A stretch of 48,071 nt of DNA, from contig ONRL01000039.1 of NCBI GenBank assembly GCA_900320225.1, forward strand, positions 1-48,071, written 5' to 3'. The stretch's first letter is position 1, and every line of letters starts with the position of its first letter. The DNA is from an uncultured Lentisphaerota bacterium. GTDB lineage: Bacteria; Verrucomicrobiota; Kiritimatiellia; RFP12; UBA1067. Shown piece by piece: positions 3,401 through 46,560 of the stretch. The position numbers and the translations under genes are program-made. Under the pieces are notes generated by a model that saw only the letters and a program-made list of their open reading frames with translations, searched no databases and was not told where the DNA came from.

Positions 3401-3472
3401 GCCGCAAAGAACACAAAGAGCACAAAGACTTGGGTAGACTTTGACCTATGTGATCTATGTGTCCTTTGTGGC
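3401..3472. repeat. Imperfect inverted repeat built of CACAAAG words
   Basis: The left arm (3401-3430) is made of 9-nt units of the type ACACAAAGA. The right arm (3444-3472) is an imperfect inverted copy (GCCACAAAGGACACATAGAT on the other strand). The two arms could fold into a long hairpin between rpsG and the end of rsmA, and the right arm abuts the rsmA stop codon. Similar CACAAAGAA-word hairpins are, to my knowledge, dispersed in environmental bacterial genomes; I cannot check copy number here. Confidence 0.5.
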
Positions 3473-4311
3473 TAGATGCCCTGGGGTTCCAAGTTGTCCA
3501 CGAAGGCGATCCAGTCGGCGTTGGAGAGCTGTTCGGCGCGGGCGGTTGACTGGACGAGGCCCTTGAAGATCGCGCCGAGCTGTTTGCGGCGGTGCTCGAA
3601 GGCCTGTTTCGTGATTTGACGGAAGCGTGCTCGCCATTCGGGGAAACGCGCATCGTTGCGGTGGTGGCGCGTGAGGCGCACCACGGTGGAACCGATTTCG
3701 GGTCGCGGCCAGAAGCAGGAAGCCTTGACGGCACGTACGAGCTGGACGTCGTAGTCGAGCTGCACCCACACGCCCGCGAGACCGCGCGCCTTGGAGCCGG
3801 GGCCGGCCGCGAGTCGTTCTGCGACTTCCGTCTGCACGAGCACGACGGCGGTTTCGGGGGCGGCGGACGCGCCGGATTCGGACGCGCAGGAGCGCGTCCC
3901 TCCCGTGCGTTGCGTGAGTTCGAGGAGGATGCGCGTGCCAGCCTGGTAGGGGAGGTTGGAAACGAGGGAGGGGAAGCCGTCGCAGGCGCCTTCCTTGATG
4001 AGGTCGAGTGCGTCGCCGGCGCGGACGGTGAGGTCGGGCGGGTTGCCGAGCGCCTCGGCGAGACGTTCGGCGAGCACGGGGTCTTTCTCGATGGCGGTTA
4101 CGGCGTAGCCGCGGCGGAGCATCTCCTCCGTCAGCACGCCGAGACCGGGGCCGATTTCCAGCACGCGCGCGCCGGGTGGGAGCGCGGCGGCGTCCACGAT
4201 GGCCTCGAGGGCGTTGCGGTCCACGAGAAAATTCTGCCCCAGCACCTTGTTCGGGTGGAACCCGTGGTCGATGCACCACGCCTTGACCTGACTGGGGCTC
4301 GTCAGGTTCAT
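3472..4311 (-). CDS. rsmA: 16S rRNA dimethyladenosine transferase
   Basis: KsgA-family methyltransferase that dimethylates two adjacent adenines in the terminal helix of 16S rRNA. It shows the family start VLGQNFLVD, the SAM-binding motif VLEIGPGLGVLTEEML, the acidic residue in VTAIEKD and the catalytic SNLPY. The start ATG at 4311 overlaps the stop of the upstream isomerase gene by one base (TGATG), so the two are translationally coupled; the surA-rsmA pairing is also known in enterobacteria. An unusual loop, LTQRTGGTRSCASESGASAA, sits right after the NLPY strand. It is encoded by a copy of the dispersed palindromic repeat at 3877-3905. The frame stays open, so the protein tolerates the insert. 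Confidence 0.95.
   Translation of the reverse strand: MNLTSPSQVKAWCIDHGFHPNKVLGQNFLVDRNALEAIVDAAALPPGARVLEIGPGLGVLTEEMLRRGYAVTAIEKDPVLAERLAEALGNPPDLTVRAGDALDLIKEGACDGFPSLVSNLPYQAGTRILLELTQRTGGTRSCASESGASAAPETAVVLVQTEVAERLAAGPGSKARGLAGVWVQLDYDVQLVRAVKASCFWPRPEIGSTVVRLTRHHRNDARFPEWRARFRQITKQAFEHRRKQLGAIFKGLVQSTARAEQLSNADWIAFVDNLEPQGI
3877..3905 (-). repeat. Palindromic repeat module inside rsmA
   Basis: Identical over 29 nt (reverse orientation) to 11461-11489 in purN. It consists of CGGGAGG, then a hairpin with stem GGACGCGC/GCGCGTCC and loop TCCT, then GAA. In rsmA it is translated as G-G-T-R-S-C-A-S-E. Confidence 0.85.
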
Positions 4312-6284: not shown

Positions 6285-6374
6285 ATGGGTTCCATCAAGA
6301 AGAAGCGCCGCAAGAAAATGTCGAAGCACAAGTACGACAAGCGGATGAAGGCGCAGCGCCACAAGAACAAGTAA
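6285..6374 (+). CDS. bS22 / AURKAIP1-COX24-type mini ribosomal protein
   Basis: A 29-residue, extremely basic protein beginning MGSIKKKRRKKMSKHKYDKR. It matches the short AURKAIP1/COX24 family (mitochondrial mS38; called bS22 in mycobacterial ribosomes), whose bacterial members start MGSV-KKRRKRM-KKKHRK. Those proteins bind rRNA near the decoding region. AAAAGGAG lies 7-8 nt before the ATG. The gene is short enough to be missed by length-filtered annotation. The hisG upstream gene shares direction and probably the promoter; a paired hairpin region follows. Confidence 0.85.
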   Translation: MGSIKKKRRKKMSKHKYDKRMKAQRHKNK

Positions 6375-6383
6375 GCCCGTCGC

Positions 6384-6490
6384 GGGAAGCGGCAAGAGTG
6401 CCGCTTCCCCGAGGTGTGCAGTTCTCAGGGTTCTTGCAAGAAGGGCTAAGAAGGGCCCATTTTTCGGGGAAGCGGCACTCTTGCCGCTTC
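6384..6490. terminator. Pair of inverted hairpins between convergent genes
   Basis: Two near-perfect hairpins face each other. At 6384-6409, GGGAAGCGGCA is paired with its complement around loop AGAG. At 6469-6490, GAAGCGGCA is paired with its complement around loop CTCT. The second is the reverse complement of the first. They separate the bS22-like gene from the convergent L,D-transpeptidase gene and could terminate both. The same unit recurs at 36642-36710, so this is also a member of the dispersed repeat family. Confidence 0.6.
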
Positions 6491-6497
6491 TCTTGTT

Positions 6498-10847: not shown

Positions 10848-11501
10848 ATGCAAAAACTGAAACTGGGCGTCCTGGGTTCGGGCGCGGGCTCGAACATGCA
10901 GTCGATCGTCGACGCGATCGACAAGGGCGAGCTGGATGCCGAAATCCGCCTCGTGCTGGCCGACGTGCCGGACGCGAAGATCCTCGACCGCGCGCGGCGG
11001 CACGGCATCCCGTGCCAGTACCTCGACTGCGCGCCGTGGAAGACGAAACTGGAAGGACCCGCCGAGGACCGGTGCATCCAGCTCCTGAAGGACGCGGGGT
11101 GCGACGTCGTGGTGCTCGCCGGTTTCATGCGCATCGTGAAGCCGAAGCTGCTCGCCGCGTTCCCGATGCGCGTCCTCAACATCCACCCCGCGCTTCTGCC
11201 GGCCTTCCCCGGCGTCCACAGCTGGACGCAGGCGCTCGACTACGGCTGCAAGGTGGCGGGCGTGACCGTGCATTTCGTCGACGCCGGCACGGACTCCGGC
11301 CCGATCATCGTGCAGAAGTGCGTGCCCGTCCTCGAGGACGACACGCCCGAGTCGCTCCACGCGCGCATCCAGGTGCAGGAGCATCTCGCGTTCCCGGAGG
11401 CGCTTCGCCTCCTCGCGGCCGGCCGCCTCTCCGTCGAGGGCCGCCGCGTGCGCATCGCCCCGGGAGGGACGCGCTCCTGCGCGTCCGAAACCACTACTTG
11501 A
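10848..11501 (+). CDS. purN: Phosphoribosylglycinamide formyltransferase
   Basis: Purine-pathway enzyme that formylates GAR using 10-formyl-THF. The fold start LGVLGSGAGSNMQSI, the cofactor/active-site segment VVLAGFMRIV, the NIHPALLPAFPGVHSW catalytic Asn/His motif and the aspartate in GVTVHFVDAGTDSGPII are visible. The start ATG at 10848 is chosen for its spacing from AGAAGGGG; a GTG at 10842 would overlap the dnaJ stop. The last 13 residues, PGGTRSCASETTT, are not family sequence. They come from a palindromic repeat copy at 11461-11489 that has replaced or extended the natural C-terminus after EGRRVRIA. Confidence 0.93.
   Translation: MQKLKLGVLGSGAGSNMQSIVDAIDKGELDAEIRLVLADVPDAKILDRARRHGIPCQYLDCAPWKTKLEGPAEDRCIQLLKDAGCDVVVLAGFMRIVKPKLLAAFPMRVLNIHPALLPAFPGVHSWTQALDYGCKVAGVTVHFVDAGTDSGPIIVQKCVPVLEDDTPESLHARIQVQEHLAFPEALRLLAAGRLSVEGRRVRIAPGGTRSCASETTT
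11461..11489 (+). repeat. Palindromic repeat module at the 3' end of purN
   Basis: A 29-nt match to the copy inside rsmA (3877-3905, inverted). CGGGAGG leads into a stem GGACGCGC/GCGCGTCC with loop TCCT. It is translated in the same frame as in rsmA, as G-G-T-R-S-C-A-S-E, and the purN stop codon comes 12 nt after its end. Confidence 0.85.
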
Positions 11502-15893: not shown

Positions 15894-18737
15894 ATGGCTG
15901 AAAACGACGAACCGATGATTCAGACGCCTGCCGATTTCGGGCACTTCGTGCTTGAAAAGGAGCTGGGGCACGGCGGCATGGGCGGCGTGTACCTTGCGCG
16001 CGACAAGATGCTGGACCGGCGCGTGGGCATCAAGGTGATGCTCAAGAGCCTCGGCGCGGACCCGAAGTTCGTCGAACGCTTCCAGCGCGAGGCGCAGGCC
16101 GCCGCGCGCCTCAACCACCCGAACATCGCGCAGATCTATTCCTTCGGCCAGGAGCAGGGCATGCCCTACATCGCGATGGAGCTCGTTCCCGGCGGATCCC
16201 TCGACAAGGAAATGGAGGCGAACCCCGGCACGCTCGACGTGGCGTACGTGATGCGCGTGGGCCAGCAGGTGGCGGACGCCCTGGCGCTCGCCGCCGAGAG
16301 CGGCCTCGTGCACGGCGACGTGAAGCCGGAGAACGTGCTGTTCGACTCGGACGGCAACGCCAAGCTCGTCGACTTCGGGCTTGCGGCGATGCAGGGCGAC
16401 TCGGACGAGATCTGGGGCACGCCGTTCTACATCTCGCCCGAGAAGGTGCGTCGTCAGAAGATCGACTACCGGGCGGACATCTACTCCCTGGGCGGCACGC
16501 TCTACCATGTGCTGACGGGCGTTCCGCCGTTCGACGGGCCGGACCCGACGGCCGTCGTGAAGGCGCGCTTCGAGGGACCGCCGAAGAAGCCGAGCGAGAT
16601 TCGTCCGGACATCCCGCCGGAAGTCGACGCGATCATCATGCGCATGCTCGAGCTCGAGCCGTCGATGCGCTACCCCACCTACCAGTCGCTGCTCGGCGAT
16701 TTCAAGCGCTATCTCGCGAAGGCGGGCCCCGCGAAGGGCGGAAAGTCCTCCGGGCCGAAACTCAAGTTCAAGGGCATGAAGCCCAAGCTGTCCCTCTCCA
16801 GCACGGGGAACAACCTGCCGGTGGACGGCGAGGTCGCCGACCTCCAGCCGATCGACGACTTGAACGGCGGCGAAGAGGAAAAGAAGGGCATGGGCGTGGG
16901 CGCGATGGTCGGCATGGTGGTCGGCGGCATCGTGTTGCTGATCCTGCTCGTCGCCGGCGGCCTGTGGTGGTACGTGAGCAGCACGAAGGCGGCGGAGGAG
17001 GCGCAGAACGTCCAGCAGATCGTCGACAAGCAGAACAAGGCGCGCCAGTCGATCCAGAAGACCGTCAAGACCGTGCAAGAGGACTACGCGGAGTTCCACA
17101 AGCTCGTCCTGAAGGGCGACGCGGCCGTGGAGCAGGCCGTGCGCGAAGTCAAGAAGGTGCTGCCGGAGGAAATGCAGGCGGCGGCCGCCGCCGTGCTCGC
17201 GCCCGCGCCGTCGCCCTTGATCGCGGACGCAGTGGCCTTCACGAACGCGCTGTTCGGCGTCAAGGCCCCGCCGCCGCCCGAAGCGAAGCCCGCCGCAACG
17301 AACGCGACCGAGGCGGCCTCCGCCGAGAAGAAGGACGCGGACAAGAAGGATGCGGACAAGAAAGCGGACGCGAAGAAGGCCGACGACAAGAAGGATGCGG
17401 ACAAGAAGGCGGACGCGAAGAAAGACACGAAGAAGGCCGACGGCAAGAAGAAGGCGGACGCGAAGAAAGACGCGAAAAAACCGGAGGCGAAAAAGGACGC
17501 CGACGAAGAGGACAAGGACGCCCAGGCCGAGAAGGAGCAGGAAGAGGCCGAGTCCAAGGCCGAGGGCAAGGAGGCGAAGAAGCCTGACAAGAAGGACGCG
17601 AAGAAACCCGACAAGAAGGAGGAGAAAGAGGAAGAGGCGCCAGCCGACGAAGAGAAGAAGGAGGACGATTCGGAGGACGAGAAGCCGGCCGAGGAGGCGA
17701 AGCCCGCGTTGGCACTGCCGTCGTCCGTGAACAACTTCCTGAAGCTCTGGGACGACGTCTACCAGTGCCGCGCGGCCGACATCAAGTTCCATGGAAGCAT
17801 GCTCAAGCTGATCGAGAAGTCCAAGGAGGCCAACGCCCTCACGGCGCAGGACGAGGAGACGACCGCGAAACTCGCCAAGCTCGCGAACGACCTCGTGGAC
17901 GAATACAACCGCCTCAAGGGCGAGAAGTGGCTGACGGACGCACGGCGGAAGCTGCAGGGCGTCGACGCGCGCGCCCGCACCTTCCGCGAGGACGCCGTCA
18001 AGAAGATCAACCTCGCCGTCGAGCGTCGCGCCCGCGCGGAGGCCGAGAAGCGCGCCGCCGAGGAGAAGGCCGCTGCCGCCGCCGCCGCTGCCGAGAAGCT
18101 CAAGGAGCAGGTCGCGGAGGAGCAGCAGAAGGCGCAGAGCGAGTTCGAGGCGCTCTCGCGCGACATCAAGCGCATCGAATGGGAGCGATGTACGAAGCAT
18201 CTCACGCGCCTGAAAGACGGCATGAAGACGCGCGAGGGGAAAGACGCGGCGGAGGACCTGATCAAGAAGATCAAGTTCATGGAGGGCATGCAGAACCACT
18301 TCATCAAGCACGCGAACCACTTCAAGTTCAAGACCTCCCGCGGCGCGCTGCTGGCCATCGTGACGAAGGTCGACGACAAGGCGTTGACGATCCAGAAAGC
18401 CAAGTACGTGAAGGGGAAGCCCGTGCCGGACAAGGAAAAGCGCGAGGAATGGGTCCGCTTCTACGGTCTCCGGGAAAAGGATTACCTCGGCTACATGAAC
18501 CAGTTCATCAACGAACTTGTGATCAAGGGGCGCGAAACCACGAAGATCGGGCCGCTGGAGTGGAGCGAGCACATGCTCGGCGCCGCGCTGACGCTCCAAT
18601 GCCTCTACGGCGAGGAGAAGGGCGTGGACAAGTTCATCCCCGTGCTGGTGAAGAAGGCCGTGAAGGAATTCGAACCCTGCCGCAAGTGGGCCGTGAAGTG
18701 GTTCCCGGACGTCGAACTTGAGGATCCTGTCGAATGA
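15894..18737 (+). CDS. Transmembrane Ser/Thr protein kinase (PknB-like) with charged repeat region
   Basis: The cytoplasmic kinase domain (about residues 15-275) has the glycine loop GHGGMGGVY (25-33), lysine in VGIKVM (47), catalytic loop HGDVKPENV (140-148) and DFG (160-162), so it should be active. HGD instead of HRD makes it a non-RD kinase. One membrane segment spans about 333-361. The region beyond it contains a lysine/aspartate/alanine low-complexity array (about 479-605; units like KKDADKK and ADAKK) and an alanine/glutamate-rich coiled coil (about 690-750). The C-terminal 150 residues match nothing I recognise. Its stop overlaps the symporter start (ATGA), tying signalling to the transport/sugar genes downstream. 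Confidence 0.85.
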   Translation: MAENDEPMIQTPADFGHFVLEKELGHGGMGGVYLARDKMLDRRVGIKVMLKSLGADPKFVERFQREAQAAARLNHPNIAQIYSFGQEQGMPYIAMELVPGGSLDKEMEANPGTLDVAYVMRVGQQVADALALAAESGLVHGDVKPENVLFDSDGNAKLVDFGLAAMQGDSDEIWGTPFYISPEKVRRQKIDYRADIYSLGGTLYHVLTGVPPFDGPDPTAVVKARFEGPPKKPSEIRPDIPPEVDAIIMRMLELEPSMRYPTYQSLLGDFKRYLAKAGPAKGGKSSGPKLKFKGMKPKLSLSSTGNNLPVDGEVADLQPIDDLNGGEEEKKGMGVGAMVGMVVGGIVLLILLVAGGLWWYVSSTKAAEEAQNVQQIVDKQNKARQSIQKTVKTVQEDYAEFHKLVLKGDAAVEQAVREVKKVLPEEMQAAAAAVLAPAPSPLIADAVAFTNALFGVKAPPPPEAKPAATNATEAASAEKKDADKKDADKKADAKKADDKKDADKKADAKKDTKKADGKKKADAKKDAKKPEAKKDADEEDKDAQAEKEQEEAESKAEGKEAKKPDKKDAKKPDKKEEKEEEAPADEEKKEDDSEDEKPAEEAKPALALPSSVNNFLKLWDDVYQCRAADIKFHGSMLKLIEKSKEANALTAQDEETTAKLAKLANDLVDEYNRLKGEKWLTDARRKLQGVDARARTFREDAVKKINLAVERRARAEAEKRAAEEKAAAAAAAAEKLKEQVAEEQQKAQSEFEALSRDIKRIEWERCTKHLTRLKDGMKTREGKDAAEDLIKKIKFMEGMQNHFIKHANHFKFKTSRGALLAIVTKVDDKALTIQKAKYVKGKPVPDKEKREEWVRFYGLREKDYLGYMNQFINELVIKGRETTKIGPLEWSEHMLGAALTLQCLYGEEKGVDKFIPVLVKKAVKEFEPCRKWAVKWFPDVELEDPVE

Positions 18738-32245: not shown

Positions 32246-32457
32246 TGCGCTTCTGCGGCGCCCTGCAGGCTGTTACGTAGCGCTCCGCTCGGTGACGCGG
32301 GGCGGAAGAAGCGGGCGGGGGAGGTCGCCGATGGAACGGCGGCCCAACCGTGTGGTGCGGCGGTAGGGACGGCGTTCCATCGCCGTCCGCCCCGCGACCG
32401 CCGCCTGAAAGGCGGCTTTCCCAGTTAGGCGGTTGCGACCCTCCCCACCGCGTCCCC
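32246..32457. repeat. Mosaic of palindromic repeat modules between convergent genes
   Basis: The 212-bp gap holds several palindromes and no gene: a CGATGGAACGGCGGCCC module (32330-32363, near-copy of 36559-36593), a GGACGGCG/CGCCGTCC hairpin (32367-32388) and GCCGCC-TGAAA-GGCGGC followed by TTTCCCAGTT (32400-32426). A GGTTGCGACCCTCCCC edge is the inverse of the GGGAGGGTCGC module. It separates the converging DUF5696-like and FISUMP genes. Confidence 0.65.
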
Positions 32458-35400
32458 TTAGTTGAGCGGCACGATGATGACGATATCGTCACCCCCTCCA
32501 TCGTCTACTGGCACGAAGACTTCGACATGCTGCTCCACCCGAAGGCGGAAGAAACGCGTAGTGTTGCCGTTCTGCGGGATCGTCGTGCTGCCGGAAGGGT
32601 CGAGCGGGTAGGTGGAAACACCTTCGCCATCGGGCGTGCCGGTAAGGGTGGGAGTGGCGAGGATCGAGATGTCGAAGTCCGTGGCCGAGGGATTGAGCGG
32701 CGGGGTGTGGATCACCGGATTGCCGGAGGCGTCGAACGAGATCGAGAGCAGCGGCGGGTTCGTGAACGCGCCCGTCGGGACATCGAAGAGGTAGCGGAAC
32801 ACGTTGTGGACGCCGCTCGCGTCGGCGGCGTCCCACGCGCCAAGGCCGTTCGCGGCGGCCCAGAGGTCGTAGATGACCGGGAAGTCGCCGGTGACTGTCT
32901 TGTCGCCGAAGTTCAGCACATAGCGCTTGACGTCAACCCCCGCCTGGAGGTCGTTCAGCTGGAGATAGGCGCGGCAGGCGTTGAGGTAGTACTTGCCATC
33001 GGCATTGTTCGCGCTGTTGGTATAGCAGATAGCGCTGTCGGCATTGAGGAACAGCTTTCTTGGGTCATTGACAGTAAATCCCATGGAGCTGAACGTGCCC
33101 ACGAACTGCCCGCCGGTGAAAGAGACGGCCGTCCCGGCGTCGGCATCGATCGTCACGTCGTTGAATACAGGGTTGTCGATGATTTCTGTTGCATGGGCGT
33201 CCGTAATGAGGCCATCGGCCAACTGCCACTTCACAATATATGGCTTGCCCGCCTCGATGCTTGTGGCATTCTTGAAGTTCAGCGTCAGTGTGCCGTTGCC
33301 GTCAAGGTTCGACGTCTCTTCATTCAGCTCTTTGACGATAGCGCCATCCAATGGCGTATCTGTGAAACCGTTCACATTGAACGGCAGGCACAGCGTCTGC
33401 CAGGAGCCGTCCTTGCGGAGCGTTCGACCGGCGAGCCGCACGGAGAGGGTCATGCCGTCGGCTGCGGCGATGACGGCGGAGTTGTCGGCGTTATCGACCA
33501 GGTCTAGGGCGGAAGAAACGGAGGGGGACCATACGGGGCGAATGGGTAACCCATTGTATATATTAGCAGCACCCTTTCGGATGATGTTGGAATCGAAGAA
33601 GATGTAACTCGCACCTGCTATGGTATTGACCTCGATCGGGGTGGACGCCCATATTCCGCCACTCGAACCCGCGTCGTTGAGTAAAGACGCGCTGCCGTAG
33701 CCGGTGGCGGGGAGGAAGATGCTGGCATCCACGAAGTTTCCGCGGCCGCGCACTAGGCATCCACTGACGCCGTTCATCGTCGTCCACACCCAATCGCAGT
33801 TGTTGAAAAGATCGCGCAGCTCTTGATCGGTCGGCATGCGCCAGTCGCCGCCCCAGTGCGCCTGTGCCGCGTCGTGCTCCGGCGCGAGGACGTTGTCCGT
33901 CGTGATCCACCCTTCGCTCAGCAAGGTGGCGATGTCCTTGCCGTAGGTCGAATCGAACGAAAAATTCGACGCCGAGCCGTCGCTCGCCACCCAGGCGCCG
34001 TTTTCCAGCTTGTGGCCGAGGGTGTCGCCCCACCAGAAGTAGTAGCCGTATTCCCACGGCTCGTCCGCGCCGACGTTCGTCTCGGCCCAGTACGGCCCGC
34101 CTTCCCAGAGCTGGATCTTGCCGCGCGTGTCGGCCGTCCAGTGCGCGTAAAGCGTGGTGGCCGATGCGGGAACGATGTCGGCCGCCGTCACCTGCGTGCC
34201 GCCGCTCGCCTCCGTGAACCAACCCGCAAACGCATAACCCGCGCGCGTCGCGGCAGGCAGGGAACCGTATGCCTCGTCCGGTGTGCACAACAGCGACGAC
34301 GGCGACACGGTGCCGCCGTTGGCGCTGAACGTAACCTTAACTGTACTGGCTGGCGTTTGGACGGGGCGAACGAACTCCGCGTTGGAGCGCCAGTGGTTGT
34401 ATTCCGAGCCGATATTGTCGGAAAAGAAGAGGAGACCGAACGCGCATTCGGAATCGCCCCCGTGCGGGACGGCCGACCAATAGCCGCCGTCACCGTTACC
34501 CCACAAGCCGGAGGCTGGAAGGAAGATGCTGGCTGCGGAATAGTCGCCCCGTCCCCGCACGACATAGCCATTCACGCCGTTTAGCGTCGTCCACGTCCAA
34601 TCGCAGTTGTTGACAAGATCGGCCAGCTCCAGATCCGTCGGCATGCGCCAGGCGCCGCCCCAGTGCGCCTGCGCCGCGTCGTGCGCCGGCGCGAGGACGC
34701 CGTCCGCCGTGACCCACCCCTCGCTCAGCAAGGTGGCGTTGTCCTTGCCAAATGTCGGTCTGCTTATGTCCTCGAAACAAAAGTCGAAAAGCGAGAAGCT
34801 GGAATTCGATCCGTCGCTCGCCACCAAGGTGTCGTCGTTTTCCAACCTGTAGCCGAGGGTGTCGCCCCACCAGAAGTAGTAGCCGGACTCCCACGGCTCG
34901 TCCGCGCCGACGTTCGTCTCGGCCCAGAACGGCGCGCCCGCCCAGAGCCGGACCTTGCCGTGCGTGCCGGTCGGTGTCCAGTTCGCGTTCACGACGACGG
35001 GTCCGTCGGGCATCGATAGCGTCCAGGCGCTCCCGATCTGCGTGAGGGTTCCGGCGCTGGCGGCGTAGGCGTCCAATATCATGCCGGAGGGCGGGGTGGC
35101 GGAGAGGGCCAGCCGTACGGAGTCGCCCTCGGCGGCGTAGAACGTGCCGGAAGAGGCGGTGGGGGCTCCGCTTCCCCGATAGGCCAGGCCCGTCGGGTAG
35201 GCGGTGATGCGGGTCGTGCCGTAGGTCGCCGAGGGCGCGCCGAAGCCGATCGCCACGCCTTCGCCCGCCGTCACGGCGTACGCCCGCTTGCCGCGCTTGC
35301 CTTCGCTCCACAGGCGCTCCCCGTTGCCGAAATTCTTGGATGCGAGGTAATACGTGTTGGAGACGCATGCGGCGTCGGTGCCGCGCCCGATGGGCTGGGC

Positions 35401-36373
35401 GCTCGCGCTCGCGTCGAGGCAGTCGATGAGCGTCGTCGTCGCGCCGTCGTCGCTCCAGCCGCTGAACGTGGCGACGTAGGTTCCGCCGGAGAGGCTGCCG
35501 GAGAACACGCACCCGCGCAACGTCACCGCGTAGGTGACGCTGTGGCCGATGAAGCCGCCGAAGTGGGACTCCGAGGAGGAGATCGCGGCGACGACCTCGC
35601 AGTTCTCGATCAGGTTCGTCCCACCGACGACCTCGCCGACGAGTCCGGAACAGTGGATCGCGCCGGAGACCGTGCCCGCGACCTTCAGATTCCGGATCGT
35701 CGCGCCGGAAATGCGAAAGAACGGCGCGATAGCCCTGTCCGAGCCGGACAGGGCGACCGTCAGCGTGTTCGACCCGCCGTCGAAGGTGCCGGCAAACGGA
35801 TGCTCCGCCGTGCCGACGGGAACGGTGACGGAGCCTATGTCCGCGCCAAGGCGGTAGCAGGAGTTGGAATCGAAGCCGGCGCTGATGTTGGAGGCGAAGA
35901 TGTTCCAGTCGGCGGCGGACGAGATGCGGTAGGGGTCGGCGGGCGTGCCGGAGCCGGGGAGTCTGGGCGCCGGTCACGTCGACTGCGACGACCTGCACCC
36001 AGTAGGTTCCGGCGGGTACGGAAATGTCGGCGTCGAAGCCGTGGTCTCCCACGACTCCCAGCGCCTGGTTCACGTCGGGCCTCGGCAGGGCGGCAGCCAG
36101 AATGAAGCCGGTGAGGCTGCTGCCGTATTGGTGCGTGAGGGCCGAGTCGGTGTAGAGATAGACCTGGACGGCGGTGGACTGCGACGAGACGTCGGGGTCG
36201 AAGGTCCAGCCCGTGACGTGGACGGCGAGCGGCTTGCCGTAGCATTCGTCGAGGGCCCCCTGCGGCTTGCTTCCGCCGCGCGCGGGCGCGGCGGCGAGGA
36301 CGAGCGCCGCGAACGCCGTCATTGCGGCGGCGGAGAGACTGTTGAACGTCTTGCGAGAGGATCTTGCATTCAT
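32458..36373 (-). pseudogene. Large secreted FISUMP-domain surface protein, frame broken near N-terminus
   Basis: The start at 36373 has AAGGAGG upstream and a signal peptide (NSLSAAAMTAFAALVLAAAPARGG). The first frame reaches VVAVDVTGAQTP near 35965. The second, from GSGTPADPYRISSAADWNIFA, continues to the stop at 32458. That frame holds GLUG-like strands (VSGAIHCSGLVGEV), then two copies of a Fibrobacter major-paralogue (FISUMP) domain (AHWGGAWRMPTDLELADL ... DYSAASIFLPASG and AHWGGDWRMPTDQELRDL ... IFLPATGYG). Each is preceded by GYYFWWGDTLG, and an InlB-type repeat (ATRAGYAFAGWFTEASGG) lies between them. The two FISUMP units are also very similar as DNA, pointing to recent duplication. 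Likely role: cell-surface adhesion or display. No sorting signal is evident at the C-terminus. Confidence 0.75.
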
Positions 36374-36430: not shown

Positions 36431-36790
36431 GCGGAAAGGGGGGGCGGAGGCGACGGAGCGCGGCCGCGGCCGCCGCCAAGATGGCGGCTTTCCCAGTTGG
36501 TGCGGCCCGCTCGGCGAGCGGGCCCTACCACGGGAGGGCCGCGCTCCTGCGCGGCCGCCGATGGAACGGCGGCCCTACCATGGGGTGCGGCGGAGCGCGA
36601 CCCTCTCGGGGCGGCTCGGCGGGACGCCTCGTCCCACCGGGGAAGCGGCACTCTTGCCGCTTCTGACGATAGCTTAGCCAATGCGGGAAGCGACAGGAGT
36701 GTCGCTTCCCCGAGAGGACGGTCGCAATGGGCGAGACGCCCGTTGTCCCAGTGCGCCGCCTTCCAGGCGGCAGCCAGTTCAAGGGCAAGT
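36431..36790. repeat. Large mosaic of palindromic repeat modules
   Basis: This gene-free stretch between divergent surface-protein genes is packed with modules. In order: GCCGCC-AAGAT-GGCGGC plus TTTCCCAGTT (36472-36498); GCCCGCTCGGCGAGCGGGCCC plus TACCA (from 36505); CGGGAGG plus hairpin GGCCGCGC/GCGCGGCC, loop TCCT (36531-36557); CGATGGAACGGCGGCCC (36559-36593); GGGACG-CCT-CGTCCC (36621-36635); two GAAGCGGCA-type hairpins (36642-36663 and 36685-36710); GGGCG-AGA-CGCCC (36729-36741); and GCCGCC-TTCCA-GGCGGC plus CAGTT (36755-36779). Compared with other copies, stem changes are paired. Confidence 0.7.
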
Positions 36791-42069: not shown

Positions 42070-42161
42070 GTTGAAGCGCCGCCCAGATGGCGGCGTTCCC
42101 AGTCAATGCGCCCCGCTCGGTGGGCGGGCCCTACCACGGGAGGGTCGCAGTTTACTGCGAC
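42070..42161. repeat. Palindromic repeat modules interrupted by the IS element
   Basis: Order as in the 36.5-kb mosaic: GCGCCGCCCAGATGGCGGCG plus TTCCCAGT (42075-42103), CCCCGCTCGGTGGGCGGGCCC plus TACCA (42110-42136), CGGGAGG (42137-42143) and hairpin GTCGCAG-TTTA-CTGCGAC (42144-42161). The repeat resumes at 44044 on the other side of the insertion with CAGTTTACTGCGAC then CGCCGA, restoring the family pattern. Confidence 0.75.
42148..42161 (+). repeat. Left copy of the 14-bp target-site duplication
   Basis: CAGTTTACTGCGAC, immediately before the left inverted repeat; identical to 44044-44057. Confidence 0.85.
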
Positions 42162-42186
42162 TGTCACTTGCAGAACTAAACGCAAG
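42162..42186 (+). repeat. Left terminal inverted repeat of the IS
   Basis: 25 bp matching the complement of 44019-44043 with three mismatches. It ends in the word AACTAAACGCAAG, which recurs internally. Confidence 0.85.
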
Positions 42187-46462: not shown

Positions 46463-46560
46463 GCAGCCACCCCATACGGGCGCAACAAGTTGCGCCCCTC
46501 CCGCGTGGGCCGAAACGGGAGGGGCGCAATTTATTGCGCCCGAAAACGGCGCATGGGCCG
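46463..46560. repeat. Inverted pair of GGGAGG-hairpin repeats
   Basis: Right-reading unit 46516-46545: CGGGAGG, stem GGCGCAA/TTGCGCC, loop TTTA, then CGAAA. Left-reading unit 46477-46503: the same with loop CAAG. The opposed arrangement resembles bacterial BIME (paired REP) units. It fills the gap between the DUF4838 gene and the next promoter and may stop transcription, though no T tract is present. Confidence 0.7.

Follow-up and report, generated by a model that had tools for sequence, protein, structure and literature searches.

Palindromic REP families in mosaic arrays and within genes of a putative Kiritimatiellae gut genome, with a main family probably spread by its own RAYT

Palindromic modules in the window

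The window, that is, the whole stretch of 48 071 nucleotides analysed here, is contig C105 of a draft genome of 5.2 Mb in 351 contigs that is 95% complete. Kinship with relatives holding the same element points to a Kiritimatiellae-type gut MAG as its host; the named relatives are mostly ruminant-gut MAGs of Kiritimatiellae, Victivallales and Verrucomicrobia, and all genomes compared were fragmented MAGs. Between two divergent genes, the stretch from 36.43 to 36.79 kb combines at least five REP-like classes as a mosaic. Besides a main class with the head GGGAG, four extra palindrome classes share such arrays, namely GTAG-headed, ACTGG-headed, GGGGAAG (class D) and GGTGG-headed modules. The modules of this array and their counterparts elsewhere in the window are as follows.

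36472 to 36497, minus strand: ACTGG-headed module (ACTGGGAAA + GCCGCCA-tct-TGGCGGC), within a 72-nt block 88% identical to 42077-42148
36504 to 36528, minus strand: GTAG-headed REP (GTAG + GGCCCGCTC-gcc-GAGCGGGCC), fold -12.0 kcal/mol
36532 to 36557, plus strand: GGGAG-headed main-class REP with a C-G variable pair
36553 to 36578, minus strand: GTAG-headed REP (GTAG + GGCCGCCG-ttccat-CGGCGGCC), overlapping the end of the main-class REP at 36532 to 36557
36621 to 36638, minus strand: GGTGG-headed module (GGTGGGACGAGGCGTCCC), of the class with which the RAYT ORF of contig C178 is filled
36639 to 36663, plus strand: class D module GGGGAAGCGGCA-ctct-TGCCGCTTC
36685 to 36710, no strand assigned: class D variant with a paired change, GGGAAGCGACA-ggag-TGTCGCTTCCC
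36726 to 36752, minus strand: ACTGGGACAAC-headed module (stem GGGCG-tct-CGCCC), weak fold (z -2.0)
36755 to 36778, minus strand: ACTGGCT-headed module (GCCGCCT-gga-AGGCGGC)
6382 to 6410, no strand assigned: class D palindrome
6464 to 6491, no strand assigned: class D palindrome, inverted relative to 6382-6410 (27 nt, 100% complementary)
32363 to 32388, plus strand: GTAG-headed REP (GTAG + GGACGGCG-ttccat-CGCCGTCC)
32400 to 32425, minus strand: ACTGG-headed module (GCCGCCT-ttc-AGGCGGC)
42138 to 42162, plus strand: GGGAG-headed REP, CGCAG-TTTA stem type
46478 to 46502, minus strand: GGGAG-headed REP, CGCAA-CTTG stem type
46517 to 46541, plus strand: GGGAG-headed REP, CGCAA-TTTA stem type

A sequence-only reading of the window had described a family of palindromes recurring at 6.4, 32.3, 36.5, 42.1 and 46.5 kb, combined as a mosaic that goes beyond a single REP type. 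The modules are present at these places, within one array several REP classes intermingle, and all stems quoted in that reading were found in the window sequence. The stem GGACGCGC/GCGCGTCC lies at 11467-11486 and its paired counterpart GGCCGCGC/GCGCGGCC at 36537-36556; GCGGCA/TGCCGC falls within 36642-36663 and GCGACA/TGTCGC within 36685-36710. The stems with a TTTA loop, GGTCGCAG-TTTA-CTGCGACT at 42143-42162 (outermost pair G-T) and GGGCGCAA-TTTA-TTGCGCCC at 46522-46541, have the lead CGGGAG in common.

The main-class unit and its copy number

The main-class unit, 26 nt long, opens with a GGGAG head and closes with a single G; between them lies a perfect 8-bp stem with a loop of 4 nt. Profiling 127 copies gave GGGAG+GGNCGCGC-TCC(T/C)-GCGCGN'CC+G with sharp ends and near-random flanks, the central letters being set by the search pattern, which leaves the ends and the N:N' columns as the profile's only informative parts. 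The 5.2 Mb genome contained 513 copies with at most three mismatches (reversed-pattern control 0), and a looser pattern gave 417 exact matches genome-wide (reversed control 0), which excludes a chance origin of the class. Repeats confined to the few copies seen in the window would have told against the sequence-only reading; there are hundreds, exceeding the 100 copies of a short palindrome per genome that are expected of a REP. Same-genus genomes held 0 to 275 copies of the looser pattern, several of the pattern counts made outside the sampled part of the host genome being inflated since loci were retrieved with the same pattern. The main class lacks the 5' head GT(A/G)G of REPs, its own head being GGGAG, that is, GGAG; a smaller class with a true GTAG head sits in the same arrays.

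Hairpins as such are of little weight in this GC-rich window, where those with stems of at least 8 numbered 28 against 9-16 in three Markov-resampled controls; the count is only mildly raised, and the significance lies in the repeats. A tRNA-like origin of the palindromes was considered and rejected, none being found.

Paired changes in the stem

The variable pair N:N' is Watson-Crick in 149 of 162 main-class copies, compared with 59.6 expected if the two sides were independent (selection of copies being on the 5' side only). In an alignment of 66 distinct copies, pairing of the stem was found in 94.3% of cells (79.3 when shuffled) and the covariation score was 0.413 (0.139 shuffled, at most 0.176 in slid versions), both above all 500 shuffles, in an alignment that left out unalignable sequences and so somewhat favours pairing, and with counts that are of sequences and not of events. 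Two of five measures were within the shuffle range, namely the number of pairs with both-side changes (58/500) and the number of pair types (308/500). Several of the further classes have paired stem variants of their own.

Covariation is therefore significant, as the sequence-only reading had expected of repeats that must fold. Its step from paired change to a folded form is upheld to that extent, although most of the variants could represent a handful of spread subfamilies instead of compensation in place. According to this alternative, the paired changes reflect a few old subfamilies (T-A, A-T and C-G), each copied, and hence few events instead of selection in place. We consider it plausible, if rather doubtful. 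The three types, each of them common, cover nearly all copies, tandem neighbours share the same type in 35 of 38 cases, and the inner stems are all of few kinds, as subfamilies would predict. Both-side changes nevertheless affect five of the eight stem pairs, over several loops and genomes, and at one and the same loop the stem type differs among orthologous RAYTs (see below). Each stem subfamily needed at least one paired change to arise; their spread limits the number of events, not the constraint. Compensatory stem changes have already been described for REPINs (PMC3116915), so that the paired changes alone do not exceed the known kind.

A RAYT gene that holds main-class REPs

Roughly twelve Y1/RAYT-like reading frames were found in the genome, each scoring under the NCBIfam cut-off, in line with the suggestion in the sequence-only reading that a RAYT/Y1 transposase be sought. 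One of them, on contig C293, has ten main-class copies in its open frame and three just 3' of it, and its locus is by far the densest main-class site. The HUH and catalytic tyrosine signatures (MPDHIHFF and EYVRNNPVRKGL) are conserved. The best PDB sequence match of the RAYT family profile was 4er8, the E. coli TnpA-REP (1.7e-11), which was also the best fold match of an AlphaFold model of the C293 RAYT. The model has a mean pLDDT of 60.9 and a confident core; pLDDT was below 50 in the REP-encoded stretches 1-103 and about 190-240, consistent with predicted disorder there. All 12 members of the RAYT family matched NF047646 at E below 0.001; the match of the host genome's RAYT is split in two by the REP insert and scores 67.8, short of the curated cut-off of 80.

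REPs of either orientation occur within the RAYT core, on its 5' side and also 3' of the gene. Given an uncertain start codon, the N-terminal REPs could precede the true start and thus flank the gene; the central group is truly inside it, its position being between the HUH and tyrosine motifs. The core is under purifying selection, with dN 0.022 and dS 0.838 (dN/dS about 0.03) between the host genome (G000) and G004 and dN 0.042 and dS 0.334 (about 0.13) between G000 and G003, and all three genomes have the central REP insert in mid-gene.

The stem type held at the same two places differs among orthologues: CGCGC-TCCT in G000 and G004, CGCAA-TTTA/CTTG in G003, CGCGCTCCGTCGCG in G009 and G032 (N-terminal only) and CGCAA in G023. 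Genome-wide copies of the TCCT, CGCA and CTCCGT types, respectively, numbered 417, 67 and 14 in G000, 275, 118 and 8 in G004, 129, 209 and 6 in G003, 7, 2 and 60 in G009, 0, 1 and 20 in G032 and 9, 30 and 78 in G023. The type held by the RAYT is thus the commonest of the three counted in G000, G004, G003, G009 and G032; G023 is the exception, as CTCCGT copies outnumber those of the CGCAA REPs in its RAYT (78 vs 30).

Three other loci, L031, L032 and L033, were rejected as cognate RAYTs of the main class, carrying other palindromes. L032 (contig C294, 1290-2600) is a RAYT-like gene with a TrmB-like C-terminal domain, flanked and ended by a different palindrome, TTGCAAAACAGGTctgACCTGTTTTGCAA. 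L031 (contig C277, 1120-2300) is a third RAYT-like gene, with GGCAGCGcaagCGCTGCC repeats upstream and inside its 3' part that are rare elsewhere in the sample. A second RAYT-like frame, on the minus strand of contig C178 near 9.6-10 kb (L053), has in-frame GGTGG-headed copies. The RAYT orthologues L163 and L172 (G006 and G002) contain other coding repeats, GEGERPREP and ARVDARPP, which seem to derive from imperfect palindromes like GGGAGGGCGAGCGTCC.CGCGAGCCG, and L170 and L171 (G013 and G011) are filled with another repeat pair, GGSRLSRP and AATSAALPP.

Copies within genes

The sequence-only reading placed modules inside three genes. Two of these hold, rsmA and the 3' end of purN; the third was unconfirmed.

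3472 to 4311, minus strand: rsmA/ksgA, rRNA adenine dimethyltransferase (PF00398, 2.6e-44), host of an insertion
3870 to 3905, minus strand: 36-nt in-frame insertion in rsmA with a main-class REP of the A-T type at 3880-3904; three related genomes lack the insertion
10848 to 11501, plus strand: purN-like formyltransferase (PF00551 to residue 188) with a REP in its C-terminal tail
11462 to 11486, plus strand: main-class REP of the A-T type, within the final codons of purN

The rsmA orthologues of G005, G009 and G013 (86-87% protein identity) are without the 36-nt insert, and in G006 another palindrome occupies this site. Solved RsmA structures lack residues at the position of the insert. The end points of the insert vary by a few bases among alignments, and this is the only empty site resolved cleanly at base level. 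Neither terminal inverted repeats nor a target duplication was seen at the rsmA insertion.

In a sample of 0.68 Mb out of 5.2 Mb, with gene calls from a home-made fourth-order Markov gene finder, 94 of 153 main-class copies lay wholly inside predicted genes, a rough fraction given that part of the sampled contigs was picked for high REP copy number. The class is not, then, mostly intergenic as REPs are expected to be. Counted by cluster, 45 of 79 were inside predicted genes, compared with 74% of random 25-mers, so that the main class avoids genes mildly, unlike the near-absence from genes reported for classical REPs (PMC3686654). For class D the in-gene count was 6/20, and for the GTAG class 0/8. 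With sense copies limited to one per gene, 18 of 23 genes used a single frame (GGSRSCAT or GGTRSCAS; P=2e-5). For antisense copies, again one per gene, the frame counts were 6, 2 and 6, with no significant bias, and their commonest reading by copy was ADAQERVPP. Pfam matches were found for all ten host genes tested, among them two MFS transporters, a pyruvate formate-lyase-like enzyme, a radical-SAM methylthiotransferase-like protein and an outer membrane efflux protein. Both MFS proteins carry their inserts near the middle, and the radical-SAM protein carries its insert between domains; these sites are probably loops.

In-frame insertion into many genes, here seen in the rsmA empty site and the frame bias, is the hallmark of Rickettsia-type coding palindromes (RPE; PMC3733652), and the elements might be of that kind, or be MITEs, and owe their spread to another enzyme; the RAYT would then be just one among many genes hit. 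The 79 copies in G005, a genome searched for a close RAYT orthologue with none found, would fit. This is improbable given the concentration of copies in and beside the C293 RAYT, the own stem type held there by each orthologous RAYT and the bare ends of the rsmA insertion; nor is there the CGTC tag of Rickettsia palindromic elements, the unit being GGGAG...G. Still less likely is that the hairpins act as RNA, as terminators or mRNA-stabilising structures spread or kept for that function: they are strong and some arrays follow gene ends (6.4, 42.1 and 46.5 kb), but an Rfam search of the window gave no match, no poly-T tract adjoined the hairpins inspected, the main array lies between divergent genes, and most sampled copies are in reading frames, where termination would harm.

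Inverted dimers

Two inverted REPs in one hairpin, the arrangement of a REPIN, occur as 39 heads-out dimers in G000. The two REPs are non-identical in 38 of the 39, where 11.8 identical pairs were expected, and the same variable pair N occurs in both in 1 dimer vs 16.4 expected. Among 74 dimers listed from relatives the REPs differ in 73 (1 identical vs 6.6 expected). A rule that the third pair always differs had to be rejected, as 10 of these 74 share it (27.5 expected), the difference then lying in the inner stem or loop. The long hairpin of a heterodimer has two mismatches and folds at -32.9 kcal/mol, against -39.5 kcal/mol without them. The spacers of 34/39 dimers in G000 and 65/74 in relatives have lengths of a single class modulo three (26/31 and 56/64 after dropping repeated dimers), most likely because many dimers live in reading frames.

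The dimer rule could come partly from descent of one asymmetric dimer; read functionally, it may mean that perfect long palindromes are avoided or that the enzyme needs two different arms. That the rule and the in-gene copies are artefacts of short-read metagenome assembly or gene calling is highly unlikely: sequencing can lose perfect inverted repeats and the genomes are all fragmented, but the same patterns recur in independently assembled genomes, the rsmA insert lies in a gene whose orthologues are 86-88% identical, Pfam domains support most tested hosts, and near-perfect dimers with two mismatches assemble well, so that perfect ones should not wholly vanish.

Discussion

The elements are very probably REPs of several families in BIME-like mosaic arrays, the main family being spread by its own RAYT. 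Their anatomy is well supported and is that of a REP/RAYT/REPIN system with RPE-like coding insertions; from it we infer the mechanism. The main-class REP most likely spreads as a folded single strand, which the HUH/Y1 RAYT of contig C293 would recognise and recombine. Stem letters would change in matched pairs with the hairpin having to fold for use; among RAYT orthologues the type of stem and loop does vary. New copies would land in spacers and in genes, those in genes surviving if the frame is kept and the site is a tolerant loop, linker or tail. The arms of inverted dimers are almost always non-identical, usually at the third stem pair, which keeps the dimer from being a perfect long inverted repeat. 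A more specific version, which we regard as tentative and close to evenly balanced, is a gene-adapted REPIN lineage whose REPs are open in six frames and have preferred frames, with compensated-pair heterodimers, codon-step spacers and source copies in the transposase gene.

The system resembles REP/RAYT systems (REPtrons) of the group 3 type in Stenotrophomonas and Marinomonas, which have a short head and perfect palindrome in hundreds of copies, an HUH/Y1 RAYT with its own REP type and several RAYT-REP pairs per genome (PMC2817692, PMC3686654, PMC8266576). It differs in having the head GGAG in place of GT(A/G)G, REPs inside the RAYT reading frame and not only around it, and many intragenic copies, where published accounts place REPs almost only between genes. 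In Marinomonas, changes at stem positions two and three left cleavage unaffected (PMC8266576), and the free third stem pair here would fit with a similar tolerance. With the REPINs of Pseudomonas fluorescens it shares inverted REP doublets, a long hairpin and compensatory changes (PMC3116915), although here a stem pair nearly always distinguishes the two REPs and spacer lengths follow steps of three, and described REPINs are extragenic. As in the BIMEs of E. coli (Y and Z REPs), different REP types alternate in mosaic arrays (PMC8266576); unlike in those, the stems are perfect, without internal bulge, and the two arms differ mainly in one base pair. Short in-frame palindromes in unrelated genes also characterise Rickettsia palindromic elements and the intragenic REPs of Opitutus terrae (PMC3733652), a member of the same superphylum as the window's putative host; rickettsial RPE-4 and RPE-6 differ in having the CGTC tag and no known transposase. 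We found no report of REPs filling a RAYT gene in the Rickettsia and Opitutus literature, none of a REP-filled RAYT frame, of mostly intragenic REPs or of dimer or spacer rules in the open-licence literature, and nothing relevant there on palindromic repeats in Kiritimatiellae.

The accepted view places REPs outside genes and on either side of their transposase genes. RAYT frames that hold their own REPs, with a stem type differing by orthologue, form a natural series on how a RAYT reads a hairpin, and the dimer rule poses the question whether two non-identical arms are a need of the RAYT or are just tolerated by the cell. Through in-frame insertions such as those in rsmA and further genes, proteins would steadily acquire new peptide stretches.

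Other features of the window

A tiny basic ORF, MGSIKKKRRKKMSKHKYDKRMKAQRHKNK, lies at 6285-6373 between hisG and the class D palindromes and perhaps encodes a small ribosomal protein. A lysine/aspartate-rich low-complexity repeat (KKDADKK-like) occupies 17300-17700 within ORF 15894-18737. ORF 32458-35526 has List_Bact_rpt/InlB-type repeats and contains, at 33699-34973, two direct repeats, of 252 and 141 nt, that are 83-89% identical.
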